From Roseiflexus sp. (GTDB lineage: Bacteria > Chloroflexota > Chloroflexia > Chloroflexales > Roseiflexaceae): DNA of 64,000 nucleotides. Of the stretch, positions 19,957 to 24,602 are shown one piece after another. The stretch lies in NCBI GenBank assembly GCA_025062325.1, contig JANXAL010000009.1, forward strand, positions 1 to 64,000, written 5' to 3'. Under the pieces are notes generated by a model. That model ran no database searches, was not told where the DNA came from, and saw only the letters and a program-made list of their open reading frames with translations. The position numbers were made by a program, and so were the translations under genes. Numbering within the stretch: position 1 is the first letter of the stretch; each line of letters opens with the position of its first letter.

Positions 19957-20487
19957 ATGCATCGATTAGTGGTCGCAGTCTGCGCTGGCATCATCGCAGC
20001 CGGATTGCTGATAAGTTTTGCACATGTGATGGAAGCGGCAGTGCTGCGTGCTATCCCGCAGGCGCCGCTCCTGGCATTGACCGAGACGGTCGAAGCGCGT
20101 CCGACCGATACGCCGCCGCCGACTACGCCGCCGACTACGCCGCCGCCGACTACGCCGCCGACTACGCCGCCGCCGACTACGCCGCCGACTACGCCGCCGC
20201 CGACTACGCCGCCGACTACGCCGCCGCCGACTACGCCGCCGACTACGCCGCCGCCGACTACGCCGCCAGATACGCCCGTGCAGGAGCAACAGCAGACCGC
20301 AACGCCGACCGCGACAACAGTTGTTTCGACTGCAACGTCAACATTGACGCCGACACCAACAGCGCCAGTTCCTGTCGCCTTGCCTGAAACCGGTGCATCC
20401 GCCGCCGGTGGTGCACTGCTGATCCTGCTATTGTCGGCGCTCGCTATGGCGGCTGGCAGCCTATTGGCGCGTAGTCGCAAGGCGTAA
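19957..20487 (+). CDS. Secreted Pro/Thr-repeat protein with LPETG cell-surface anchor signal
   Basis: Encodes 176 residues. A signal peptide (residues 1-30) is followed by a short linker, five perfect PPPTTPPTT units plus a partial one (about residues 53-107), a Thr/Ala linker, and a C-terminal LPETG followed by a 20-residue hydrophobic segment and the charged tail RSRKA. That is the sortase-type sorting signal layout. The rigid Pro/Thr stalk probably spans or projects from the envelope; Thr could be glycosylated. AAGGAG precedes the ATG by 8 nt. It sits 53 nt upstream of a C25 peptidase gene, which may share its transcript. No sortase gene is in the window. Confidence 0.8.
   Translation: MHRLVVAVCAGIIAAGLLISFAHVMEAAVLRAIPQAPLLALTETVEARPTDTPPPTTPPTTPPPTTPPTTPPPTTPPTTPPPTTPPTTPPPTTPPTTPPPTTPPDTPVQEQQQTATPTATTVVSTATSTLTPTPTAPVPVALPETGASAAGGALLILLLSALAMAAGSLLARSRKA
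20110..20270 (+). repeat. In-frame 27-bp tandem repeat encoding PPPTTPPTT
   Basis: A unit of CCGCCGCCGACTACG plus CCGCCGACTACG (27 nt) is repeated about 5.5 times with almost no sequence divergence, including at synonymous positions. Such perfect DNA identity implies recent expansion or ongoing slippage. Unit gain or loss would keep the frame. Confidence 0.9.
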
Positions 20488-20540: not shown

Positions 20541-23171
20541 ATGATGACACGTTTTGCTCTCGTTCTCGCTCTGGTCATCAGCGGCGTAGGTGGTGCGGCA
20601 GCATCCGTCAGCGCCATCGACCGCAGCGGTGAAACGCTGCTTGTTCAGGCAACAGGCAGCGGAACGCGGATCTTCTGGCGACCAACTGCGCTCGATCCAT
20701 CCCTGCCAGTTGAACCGGTCCTGATCGCGCTACGTGTAGTCGGTGATACGGGTATCGAGCCTCGCCTGCTGGCGCTCGATGACGCGCCATGGGGGGGCAT
20801 TTCCGACGATCTGCCTGGTGCGCCGATATTCGTGTTACGCGAGGCGCAGCAGCGCGGTGAGCGGCTGGCTGTGCTGGCGCTCGGTCCGGTCTACGTGCGT
20901 GACGGGCAGGCGCGTGTGGTGCGCACGCTTGAGGCGCTGGTCGAGGGCGCAGTCCCGCTGCATGAGTCTTCCATTCCATCTGCTGCCTCATCTCTGGCGG
21001 CGACAACGCCAGGCTCCGGTCGTCCGCCTGCCTTCCCGTCGTCTCCGGCGCTGCGGGTGCAGGTAGATCGCGCGGGAATACAGGTCATCCCTGTCGGTGC
21101 GCTGAACGCAGCGATGATCGGCGCCCCAGAGCGTATCAAGGTTAGCCGCGCAGGGGTGGAAGTCCCGATCGAACTGCGCGATGCGAGCAGCAATGGCGTC
21201 TGGGGCGATCCTGGCGACGAACTTCGCTTCTATGCGCCGCCGCCGGGCAACCGCTGGAACCGCAGCGATACGTACTGGATCACCCTTGAAGAAGGTGCGC
21301 GATTGCGTATTTCATCTCGCGTGACTGACGCGCCATCGGGCGAAGCGCCGTCCACCGCTCTGGAGCGAGGCGTCGTGCGCGGGACGACCTACTATGACTC
21401 GCGGCGCCCCGGCAGCGACGGTGATCACTGGTTTGCGAAGTTGCTGCGTGCCGAAGCAGGGCAACCGGCGGACGATCAGGCAGTGATGACCGTTCCGCTG
21501 ACAACCACCCTGCCAGCGACGACCGGAACGGTGACGTTGATGGTCAGCGTCCATACGCAATCTGGCGGTGCGCGACGCCTAGCGGCGTCGGTCGAGTCGA
21601 GCAGTGGACCTCCAGTTGAGTGGAATAGCAGCGGCGATACGACTCTGACACTGAGCGTGACGGAAAGTTCGGCTGCTGCAACCCAGGCGCGCCTGACGCT
21701 GACGGCAGGCGTCGGGTATGTGCAGGTCGCCATAGATACCGTCGAATGGCTGCGGCCGATACAGTTACAGTTTGGCGGACAAGGCGCCACCTTTCAGGGC
21801 GCCCCGGATCAGCGCGCCTATCGTTTGGCAGGCGCACCCGCCGGGTTCGATATCTATGACATCACCAATCCTATGGCGCCCGTGCGATTGCTATTGCCAT
21901 CGGAATTCGCGTTTGAGGATAGTTTGCCAGGACGATCATATCTGCTGACCGGCGCCGGAACCCGGCATACGCCGACGGTCAAAACGTTTACGCCGCCAGC
22001 GCTGCCGACCGGCGATGTATTGTACATTGCCCCATCGATGCTACACGCTGCGCTAACGCCGCTCGTCGATCTGCGACGCGCGCAAGGATACGCCGTGGCC
22101 GTGGTTGATGTGCAGCACATCTATGATGGATGGAGTTACGGTCAGGTCGATCCGGCTGCGATCCGCGCCTTCCTGCAATTTGCGCGTCCCCGGGCGGTCA
22201 CGCTGGTCGGCGACGGCAGTTCCGATCCGTTCGACTATACGGATCGCGGCGCAAAGAATGTCAATCTGATTCCGCCGTACCTCGCAACGGTCGATCCATG
22301 GCTGGGCGAAACCGCGTGCGAAACGTGTTACGCACAACTCGATGGCGACCAGCCAACCGACGACCGGCTGCCGGATGTCTGGCTGGGACGGCTGCCAGTG
22401 AAAAGCGCCGCTGAGCTACGGATGCTGGTCGCCAAGATCATCGGATATGAAACGGCTCTGCCCGGCGGCGCCTGGCGCAGCCGGATGATCTACCTAGCGG
22501 ATGATGCCGACTCAGGCGGTGATTTTGCTGCTCAGGCGGCGGCGAGCATCGCGCTTCAACCGGCAGGCGTTCAGATCAATCGGGTCTTTTTCGGCAATGG
22601 CTCCGGGCAGATTCCAAACGCAACCGCAGCGCGGACAGAGACACTGGCGCGGTTCAACAATGGGGCGGCAGTAGTCGCCTACTTTGGGCATGCGCACCAG
22701 CAGCAGTGGGCAGTGACCGAACTGAGCGCACCGGAAAACTGGCTGCTCCATCGCAACGATGTGCCGTTACTGACCAATGGCGCACGTTTACCGGTCGTGC
22801 TGGCGCTCACCTGTTTGAGTAGCGCCTTTCAGTGGCCCTCATACGTGGGAATGACGCTTGATGAGGCGCTCCTGCTGCACGAGCGCGGCGGCGCTGTGGC
22901 GGTGTGGGGTCCGACGGGACTCGGCGTATCGTATGGACACGACAAGCTGCAACAAGGCTTCTTCCGCGCGCTCTGGTCGCCAGCGCCAGAGGGAGGGATC
23001 GAACGCGCCGTGCCGCTCGGCGCATTGACCAGCGCTGGATTCCGCGAGTTGTTCACCAGCAGTGCGTGCTGTCAGGAAACGATTTTCACCTATGCCCTGC
23101 TCGGCGATCCGCTGACGCCGCTGCGAGTGACAGCAGGAACGCGCGTCGCGTTGCCGCTGGTGCAGCGGTAG
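20541..23171 (+). CDS. Secreted C25-family (gingipain-type) cysteine peptidase
   Basis: Encodes 876 residues. A signal peptide (about 1-22) is followed by an N-terminal beta-rich region of about 480 residues and then the C25 domain: LVDLRRAQGYAVAVVD, VTLVGDGSSDPFDY, LPDVWLGRLPV, and the catalytic pair H717 in VAYFGHAHQQQW and C758 in LALTCLSSAF. Family knowledge: C25 enzymes are caspase-like peptidases, often secreted and cleaving after Arg or Lys; specificity here is not predictable. It lacks a C-terminal type IX secretion domain and has no membrane anchor. Pairing with the upstream LPETG protein suggests surface processing or scavenging, which is inference. Confidence 0.88.
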   Translation: MMTRFALVLALVISGVGGAAASVSAIDRSGETLLVQATGSGTRIFWRPTALDPSLPVEPVLIALRVVGDTGIEPRLLALDDAPWGGISDDLPGAPIFVLREAQQRGERLAVLALGPVYVRDGQARVVRTLEALVEGAVPLHESSIPSAASSLAATTPGSGRPPAFPSSPALRVQVDRAGIQVIPVGALNAAMIGAPERIKVSRAGVEVPIELRDASSNGVWGDPGDELRFYAPPPGNRWNRSDTYWITLEEGARLRISSRVTDAPSGEAPSTALERGVVRGTTYYDSRRPGSDGDHWFAKLLRAEAGQPADDQAVMTVPLTTTLPATTGTVTLMVSVHTQSGGARRLAASVESSSGPPVEWNSSGDTTLTLSVTESSAAATQARLTLTAGVGYVQVAIDTVEWLRPIQLQFGGQGATFQGAPDQRAYRLAGAPAGFDIYDITNPMAPVRLLLPSEFAFEDSLPGRSYLLTGAGTRHTPTVKTFTPPALPTGDVLYIAPSMLHAALTPLVDLRRAQGYAVAVVDVQHIYDGWSYGQVDPAAIRAFLQFARPRAVTLVGDGSSDPFDYTDRGAKNVNLIPPYLATVDPWLGETACETCYAQLDGDQPTDDRLPDVWLGRLPVKSAAELRMLVAKIIGYETALPGGAWRSRMIYLADDADSGGDFAAQAAASIALQPAGVQINRVFFGNGSGQIPNATAARTETLARFNNGAAVVAYFGHAHQQQWAVTELSAPENWLLHRNDVPLLTNGARLPVVLALTCLSSAFQWPSYVGMTLDEALLLHERGGAVAVWGPTGLGVSYGHDKLQQGFFRALWSPAPEGGIERAVPLGALTSAGFRELFTSSACCQETIFTYALLGDPLTPLRVTAGTRVALPLVQR

Positions 23172-23211: not shown

Positions 23212-23239
23212 TTGACAGGCGTGGCTCTCTTGTTATAAT
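23212..23239 (+). promoter_or_regulatory. Strong sigma-70 promoter of the marR-protoglobin operon
   Basis: TTGACA (23212-23217) and TATAAT (23234-23239) are both consensus, 16 bp apart, with the start codon 20 nt beyond the -10. The transcript leader would be very short (about 13 nt). Confidence 0.85.
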
Positions 23240-23259
23240 TATTTAGGAGTACTAAATAA
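23239..23259. promoter_or_regulatory. Perfect palindromic operator overlapping the -10 box, SD and start codon
   Basis: TTATTTAG-N5-CTAAATAA is a perfect inverted repeat of 8-bp arms. It begins at the last base of the TATAAT box, contains the SD (AGGAG) in its centre and ends on the first base of the marR ATG. MarR regulators typically bind AT-rich palindromes of about 16-20 bp over their own promoter, so autorepression is the natural reading. Confidence 0.8.
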
Positions 23260-23894
23260 TGTCGCCGTTCGATCCGAAGCATCGCACAACGGTTGGGGGT
23301 CAGATTACAATCGCGCTCTACCGTATCGCACAGGCCATTGACTATCTATTGCGTGAACGAGGGAAAACAATGCGTCTCTCGCCGGCGCAGATCCAGGCGC
23401 TGCTCTTCCTCCGGTACGCCCGTCCCGGCGTGCGCACGATTGGTGGTCTGGCGCAGCGCCTAGGGGTGACATATGCGACGGCGAGCGGGGTTGCCGATGC
23501 CCTGGAGAGCAAGCAGTTCGTTGCGCGAGCGCCACTTCCCGATGATCAGCGCGTGGTCACGCTCTCGTTAACCAGTGCTGGTGAGATGCAGGCGGATCGA
23601 CTGGAGAACATTCTGGATGAGATCGAAGCGGTAGTCAACGGTTTGCCCGCTGCGGAACAATCTGCACTTTTGCGTGGAATGCAGGCGATCATAGCGCGTC
23701 TGCAACAGAGCGGCTACGTGCGCGTGTACGAGATGTGTTGGGGATGCCAGTTCTTCCGGCGCAATGCGCACCCTGATGATCCGCGCGGACCTCACCATTG
23801 CGCGTTCGTGGACGCACCTCTGGCGGAACCGGTCACCTATTTTGAGTGTCCTGATTTCGTGCCATTGGTAGAAAACAGGGAGGTTGAGCCATGA
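23259..23894 (+). CDS. MarR-family regulator with C-terminal four-cysteine domain
   Basis: Encodes 211 residues. Residues about 10-150 are a MarR winged-helix domain (recognition helix around VTYATASGVADALESKQFV, wing DDQRVVTLSLT). Unlike ordinary MarR proteins (about 145 aa), a 60-residue tail carries C160-x2-C163, C181 next to H179-H180, and C197, within YEMCWGCQFF, HHCAFVD and FECPDF. These could hold an Fe-S cluster or zinc and sense redox, oxygen or NO. The start at 23259 overlaps its own operator. The gene overlaps the protoglobin start by 4 nt (ATGA), so the two products are translationally coupled. Confidence 0.9.
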   Translation: MSPFDPKHRTTVGGQITIALYRIAQAIDYLLRERGKTMRLSPAQIQALLFLRYARPGVRTIGGLAQRLGVTYATASGVADALESKQFVARAPLPDDQRVVTLSLTSAGEMQADRLENILDEIEAVVNGLPAAEQSALLRGMQAIIARLQQSGYVRVYEMCWGCQFFRRNAHPDDPRGPHHCAFVDAPLAEPVTYFECPDFVPLVENREVEP

Positions 23895-24481
23895 CGGCGC
23901 CAGCAATACCAGGGTACACGTACGGAACGGACCAGGTTGCGCGTTCCCCAATGACCGTGCAGGACCTGGAACTTTTGAAGCAGGCCGTGCTATTTGGACC
24001 AGACGATGAGCGCTATCTGCGCATGGCGGGCGAGGTGCTCGCCGATCAAATTGAAGATGTACTTGATGTATGGTACGGTTTTGTCGCCTCGCATCCGCAT
24101 CTGGTCTACTACTTCACCGACGGGAAAGGCAATCCGAACCACGAGTATCTGGCGGCGGTGCGCAAGCGTTTCGGGCAGTGGATCCTCGATACCTGTCACC
24201 GTCCGTACGATGAAGATTGGTTGAACTATGCCTATGAGATTGGTTTGCGCCACCACCGTTCCAAAAAGAATACGGTTGACGGCGTACAGGCAGTGCCGCA
24301 CATCCACTTCCGCTACATGGTTGCATTCATCTATCCGATTACGGCAACGATCAGACCCTTTTTGGCGAAGAAAGGGCACAATCCGGAAGATGTCGAACAT
24401 ATGCACCAGGCATGGGTCAAGTCGGTGGTGATGCAGGTTGCGCTCTGGAGCGCGCCATACGTCAAAGAGGGCGATTATTAG
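23891..24481 (+). CDS. Protoglobin (single-domain haem protein)
   Basis: Encodes 196 residues and is very similar along its length to the Methanosarcina acetivorans protoglobin (IPGYTYG, LDVWYGFVASHPHL, YEIGLRHHR, AFIYPITATI, QVALWSAPYVK). The proximal haem ligand corresponds to H121 in the RHHR motif. Protoglobins bind O2, CO and NO. There is no attached signalling domain. The ATGA overlap with marR and the strong regulated promoter suggest a sensing or detoxification response to a diatomic gas or nitrosative stress; that role is inferred from the pairing. Confidence 0.93.
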   Translation: MTAPAIPGYTYGTDQVARSPMTVQDLELLKQAVLFGPDDERYLRMAGEVLADQIEDVLDVWYGFVASHPHLVYYFTDGKGNPNHEYLAAVRKRFGQWILDTCHRPYDEDWLNYAYEIGLRHHRSKKNTVDGVQAVPHIHFRYMVAFIYPITATIRPFLAKKGHNPEDVEHMHQAWVKSVVMQVALWSAPYVKEGDY

Positions 24482-24539: not shown

Positions 24540-24602
24540 ACGCACCCTGAGCCTGTCGAAGGGTGCATGCCGCCGCCCGTCCTTCGACAAGCTCAGAGCA
24601 CG
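24540..24602. repeat. Inverted CCTGAGCCTGTCGAAGG element
   Basis: GAGCCTGTCGAAGG and CCTTCGACAAGCTC form an imperfect inverted repeat separated by about 25 nt, with a copy of GTGC/GCAC on the outside. This CTGAGC-TGTCGAAGG motif is a common dispersed intergenic element in many bacteria. The rest of 24482-24749 shows no gene. Confidence 0.65.

Follow-up and report, generated by a model that had tools for sequence, protein, structure and literature searches.

A 64 kb stretch of DNA from the genome of a hot-spring Roseiflexus (assembly G000, Chloroflexota, 4.73 Mb), referred to here as the window, carries a two-gene operon in which a MarR protein with a four-cysteine tail (C4-MarR) precedes a protoglobin behind a conserved operator (Table 1). 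We propose that C4-MarR is an autorepressor that senses NO or reactive nitrogen species (RNS), probably via a [4Fe-4S] cluster, and derepresses the protoglobin, a reading to which we give about even chances. It is taken as an autorepressor because operator, C4 tail and gene linkage are conserved together; the NO-sensing logic follows the precedent of ArnR, and the protoglobin chemistry that of the M. acetivorans protoglobin (MaPgb). Comparative genomics is the basis for the module and its operator; we infer the metal, the signal, DNA binding, repression and the removal of NO/RNS by the protoglobin.

Table 1. Features of the C4-MarR-protoglobin operon, with positions in the window
Feature	Position	Strand	Basis
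-35 box TTGACA	23212..23217	+	6/6 consensus, 16-nt spacer; TTGACA recurs at the same place in most homologous operons
-10 box TATAAT	23234..23239	+	6/6 consensus; its final base is also operator base 1
Operator, perfect 8-bp inverted repeat TTATTTAG-N5-CTAAATAA	23239..23259	.	Single in the window; kept in L003 and L004 (one change in L004)
Operator core TTAGGAGTACTAA, family-wide consensus TTAGGAnTCCTAA	23243..23255	.	Sole TTAGGANTNCTAA match in the entire 4.73-Mb assembly G000; motif present in 65 of 111 homologous promoters, against 0 in the control
Shine-Dalgarno GGAG within the operator	23246..23249	+	Sequence; 9 nt before ATG
C4-MarR gene, putative repressor with four-cysteine C-terminal tail	23259..23894	+	Pfam MarR_2; AF2 pLDDT 90.7, MarR fold
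C4 tail domain, residues 151-204, C160/C163/C181/C197	23709..23870	+	Invariant Cys/P178/H179 (74 sequences); folds alone with pLDDT 91.6; HiPIP-fold proteins head the Foldseek list with weak E-values
Protoglobin gene	23891..24481	+	PF11563 1.7e-36; 124 of 194 residues shared with M. acetivorans Pgb; haem-pocket W61/Y62/F94/H121 present

The preliminary description of this DNA had placed a consensus promoter under an overlapping operator. Indeed, the -35 and -10 boxes upstream of marR match the sigma-70 consensus at 12 of 12 positions with a spacer of 16 nt, and promoter and operator share one base. The operator was also said to be perfect and to cover the Shine-Dalgarno sequence and the first base of marR, and we found both to be so: in TTATTTAG-GAGTA-CTAAATAA, the centre holds GGAG and the last base is the A of ATG. 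The reported 4-nt overlap of the two genes is an ATGA shared by both (23891-23894). With up to three mismatches allowed, the palindrome had no second match in the 64 kb (0.01 expected by chance). Its outline needed redrawing, however. The outer palindrome is real, but the conserved operator is not just this palindrome and consists of an inner TTAGGAGT(C/A)CTAA with A/T arms.

In many phyla, TTAG-N5-CTAA immediately precedes the leading gene of the operon. We searched 111 loci and their promoter windows, within 740 kb of sequence, with the generalised motif TAGGANTCCTA, allowing at most one mismatch. The common operator TTAGGAGTCCTAA with A/T arms was on the first-gene promoter in 65 of the 111 loci, and 69 of the 81 motif occurrences in the 740 kb fell in promoter windows; of the 12 occurrences of the reversed pattern, 0 did. 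The operator precedes whichever gene leads, MarR or protoglobin, and its distance to the start codon varies, which makes a Shine-Dalgarno artefact a poor explanation; in the Roseiflexus locus, AGGAG within the motif can also serve as a Shine-Dalgarno sequence. No operator motif was found in 15 protoglobin loci lacking C4-MarR. A sigma-70 promoter (at least 9 of 12 positions) adjoined the operator in 39 of 59 loci, compared with 1.1% of control windows, and the -10 box of these promoters lay mostly 8-13 nt upstream of the operator centre, indicating repressor geometry.

The operator is conserved across phyla and is the only such site in the genome; every prediction of the preliminary description that could be computed was borne out. 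The C4-MarR operon also held the sole exact operator match in most of 32 genomes scanned; G264 has extra sites and G424 a second one, all within or close to unrelated genes and apparently due to chance. Starting from the motif, we scanned 247 Acidobacteriota genomes and found the perfect 13-mer TTAGGANTCCTAA in 15 of them. A C4-MarR gene lay within 1.5 kb in 5 of 13 new loci, where about none was expected by chance. At one locus found in this way (L202), the operator stands before a cytochrome P460 gene, and the same holds for L136/L137, two loci already in the set as L099/L088.

Within the genus, two further loci (L003 and L004) keep the promoter, the operator, the C4 tail and the gene order. 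Three other genomes of the genus (G001, G004 and G005) were without C4-MarR, and their PF11563 match was shorter and of another type. The absence of both genes from these genomes indicates that C4-MarR and protoglobin are kept or lost together and that the unit is dispensable. G006 (L005), from a different genus of this family, has the two genes the other way round, with protoglobin before C4-MarR. An internal TGA in L003 was rejected as a recoded codon; this early stop lies well past the last cysteine and not at a cysteine position.

The linkage extends far beyond the genus. Using the 45-aa tail as query, we found 27 C4-MarR carriers among 400 Chloroflexota genomes, 59 of which carried PF11563. 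A protoglobin-family gene was present in 24 of the 27 (Fisher p 2e-19), at a distance of <2 kb in 21 and of ~7 kb in two more. A GTDB scan returned 228 relatives, of which the best 80 were read and added to the earlier loci; among these 80, the closest named module carrier was a Roseiflexus MAG (L055). Protoglobin was nearby in 66 of 113 loci (62 of 105 after thinning for the tree), which is not an unbiased rate because the set was chosen by similarity to the window protein. Carriers, with MAG labels as in the records, belong to Chloroflexota, Actinomycetota, Pseudomonadota, Acidobacteriota, Planctomycetota, Cyanobacteriota, Deinococcota, Bacillota, Myxococcota, Nitrospirota, Armatimonadota, Poribacteria and, on a plasmid, Bacteroidota. 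Cultured carriers include R. castenholzii, Thermanaerothrix and Calidithermus. No relative was found in the viral contigs searched. In a tree of 105 loci, protoglobin linkage occurred in both deep halves and required 22 changes, below all 500 shuffles (mean 33.5). Homologues thus pass the check proposed in the preliminary description: all four cysteines are retained, and the linkage to protoglobin is far beyond chance.

Fusions of the two genes were considered and set aside. Long open reading frames in L119 and L120 are start-site artefacts. We do not claim a true fusion for the single MarR-protoglobin reading frame of an Acidobacteriota locus (L116:3950-5260) either, which may reflect a lost stop instead, as its protoglobin part has its own strong Shine-Dalgarno sequence and ATG.

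C4-MarR (211 aa) belongs to the MarR family by its Pfam matches (MarR_2 1.6e-11, MarR 7.5e-10). Foldseek matches of the whole AF2 model were MarR structures and covered ~150 residues, the MarR part only. C160, C163, C181 and C197, reported beforehand in the tail, are there and are the sole cysteines of the protein. The tail had also been called unusual; instead, it marks a widespread MarR subfamily that spans more than ten phyla. Its cysteines are spaced C-x2-C-x17-C-x15-C here and C-x2-C-x14-17-C-x15-C in nearly all members of the subfamily, with a shorter middle loop in L052, a relative on a plasmid, and in L200 and L201, both from Acidobacteriota. Across 74 sequences only ten columns were invariant, and six of these (C160, C163, P178, H179, C181 and C197) lie within the tail. 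Such a pattern suits a coordination site better than a disulfide switch. In one genome (G150:C120, L049) we observed a small stand-alone protein with little beyond the C4 tail (MAGVCRTCHFF...PHRCAF...HICPEH), which suggests that the tail is an independent domain.

We found no sequence relatives of the tail in Pfam or PDB. From the cysteine spacing we had drawn the hypothesis of a HiPIP-like fold before the Foldseek search. HiPIPs show C-x2-C-x14-16-C-x13-14-C and, like the tail, a CxxCxxF motif; the first three cysteines match in spacing, whereas the last interval is 15 here and 13-14 in most HiPIPs compared. The model of the isolated tail gave 7 matches among 350,542 PDB chains. The top four, individually non-significant (TMq 0.39-0.60, E 1.2-5.3), comprised HiPIPs and a glycyl radical enzyme's small subunit, which we take to be a HiPIP-like [4Fe-4S] subunit. 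Aligning the tail with a HiPIP profile by hhalign gave 51% over just 18 columns around CxxCxFFxP. Among 200 decoys with permuted columns and fixed cysteines, none reached the local score and three reached the global score. Three of the HiPIP sequences used were confirmed by identity in the PDB search, and the rest came from the output of that search. HiPIPs are electron carriers and not DNA-binding, and the Pfam HIPIP model misses the tail. Taken together, fold matches and profile score make the likeness suggestive, but they are not proof.

The protoglobin (196 aa) is of the single-domain MaPgb type. It is 64% identical to the M. acetivorans protein (E 1.5e-89) and retains its haem pocket, including the proximal H121; the latter protein is archaeal, whereas that of Roseiflexus is bacterial and in an operon with C4-MarR. 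In 2012 the function of protoglobins was stated as unknown (PMC3313925). In vitro, MaPgb isomerizes peroxynitrite and reduces nitrite (PMC4020757).

Repressors of comparable logic are known from other families. NsrR, which controls hmp, and other Rrf2-type Fe-S regulators resemble C4-MarR in pairing an NO-sensing repressor with a haemoglobin gene, but Rrf2 is a separate protein family with three conserved cysteines. SufR is likewise a wHTH repressor with four cysteines and a [4Fe-4S] cluster; its target is the suf operon and its cysteine spacing differs. A precedent is ArnR of Corynebacterium, a dimeric wHTH repressor with a C-terminal cysteine domain whose [4Fe-4S] cluster senses NO and which represses the flavohaemoglobin gene hmp (PMC12343034). 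ArnR, however, has three cysteines (179, 193 and 223) without a CxxC in a TRAPPC3-like domain, has been reported almost exclusively from Actinobacteria, and controls narKGHJI and hmp, not a protoglobin. The cysteine spacing rules out that C4-MarR is its orthologue.

In the proposed mechanism, a C4-MarR dimer would bind the operator TTATTTAGGAGTACTAAATAA, which extends from -10 box to start codon, and block transcription of both marR and the protoglobin gene, as the conserved position and sequence suggest. The four invariant cysteines would bind a metal, in all likelihood as a [4Fe-4S] cluster within a HiPIP-like fold. Modification of the cluster by NO or a related RNS would cause C4-MarR to leave the operator, and the protoglobin then made would remove or convert NO/RNS. 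Once the stress is over, intact repressor would shut the operon again. Elsewhere, C4-MarR and its operator are linked to genes for P460, YgbA_NO, hemerythrin-DUF438, thiol peroxidase or thioredoxin, in place of or beside protoglobin. More tentatively, and with somewhat less than even confidence, we consider that C4-MarR proteins form a pan-bacterial set of MarR repressors with a HiPIP-like [4Fe-4S] sensor for NO/RNS, one operator (TTAGGAnTCCTAA) and protoglobin as the main effector.

The pairing is not exclusive, and the partner genes bear on the signal. Many C4-MarR genes adjoin other detoxification genes. Where protoglobin was missing, the partners were cytochrome P460 under the operator, DUF2024, CMD, AhpC/TSA, thioredoxin and cupredoxin. 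Loci of this kind also link C4-MarR to NnrS in L103, to hemerythrin-DUF438 in L199 and, in cyanobacteria, to thiol peroxidase; in L197, operator, C4-MarR, YgbA_NO (4-nt overlap with C4-MarR) and a ferredoxin-like gene follow one another. P460, YgbA and NnrS belong to families that we take to be tied to NO or hydroxylamine. A glutaredoxin-like gene lies between C4-MarR and protoglobin in L057 (4579-4926) and in at least 8 other Chloroflexota loci; none is present in the window. In L193 (Synechococcales cyanobacterium), we observed the order operator, protoglobin, a thiol-peroxidase-like gene (named from its sequence by eye) and C4-MarR.

Neighbours related to peroxide were as frequent as those related to NO or more so. 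The same autorepressor could use its four cysteines as a thiol or zinc redox switch for peroxide or electrophiles, with the protoglobin acting as a peroxidase-like or redox protein. Other MarR proteins (OhrR and MarR) sense by cysteine oxidation, and Tpx, AhpC/TSA, CMD, glutaredoxin and thioredoxin are all among the neighbours. The C4 set suits Zn as well, and the authors of the ArnR study note that the ligands of Zn and of Fe-S proteins are often alike (PMC12343034). Against this, P460, YgbA_NO, NnrS and hemerythrin-DUF438 point to NO, and the nearest solved folds of the modelled tail are [4Fe-4S] HiPIPs. We regard the redox switch as possible but unlikely. Taken as a whole, the partner set speaks for NO/RNS, and peroxide is the chief alternative.

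The repressor could also, with the same architecture, sense O2 or iron/Fe-S status, with the protoglobin binding O2 or CO at oxic-anoxic shifts. Protoglobins do bind both gases, Roseiflexus mats alternate between oxic and anoxic, and the Fe-S regulators FNR, SufR and RirA can sense O2 or iron. However, HiPIP-type clusters are generally O2-stable, and the 25 commonest neighbour families included no suf/isc, iron uptake or respiratory oxidase genes. The cysteine- or cluster-based sensing of O2 or NO suggested in the preliminary description is made more likely by the HiPIP-like tail and the NO-related neighbours. NO/RNS as the signal is better supported than O2, and we consider O2 or iron sensing improbable. 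A purely structural Zn knuckle in the tail, with no part in sensing and with a small molecule as ligand in the standard MarR pocket, is very improbable: small ligands are common among MarR proteins, as are C4 zinc knuckles in general, but conservation of the tail is far above that of the MarR ligand region, a stand-alone tail protein exists, and the partner genes are those of redox and NO, not efflux or catabolism.

A literature search judged by titles and abstracts, with subscription journals mostly outside, found no description of a MarR-protoglobin pair, a HiPIP-like tail in a regulator or the operator sequence. In its logic, the C4-MarR system varies a theme of Fe-S/NO repressor-globin systems; within the limits of this search, the tail, the C4-MarR family, the operator and the protoglobin partner are new. 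If the proposed NO-sensing mechanism is true, an electron-transfer fold has been turned into a gene switch, protoglobin gains a role in NO defence and the tail would add a new sensory domain to those of MarR proteins. The signal that lifts the C4-MarR repressor would be what protoglobin is made for and can guide experiments on protoglobin function, and the operator allows the regulon to be read straight from any genome.

Other features of the window were seen in passing. Just 3' of the protoglobin gene (24547-24596), facing copies of CCTTCGACA(A/G)GCTCAG form a repeat-like hairpin, the overall fold being no better than that of shuffles. A 27-bp tandem repeat at 20105-20276 (6.4 copies, 97% matches) encodes a Pro/Thr-rich stretch in a 176-aa open reading frame (19957-20487). 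Positions 20541-23171 encode a Peptidase C25 protein, a relative of PorU-type sortases, here in a Chloroflexota genome.
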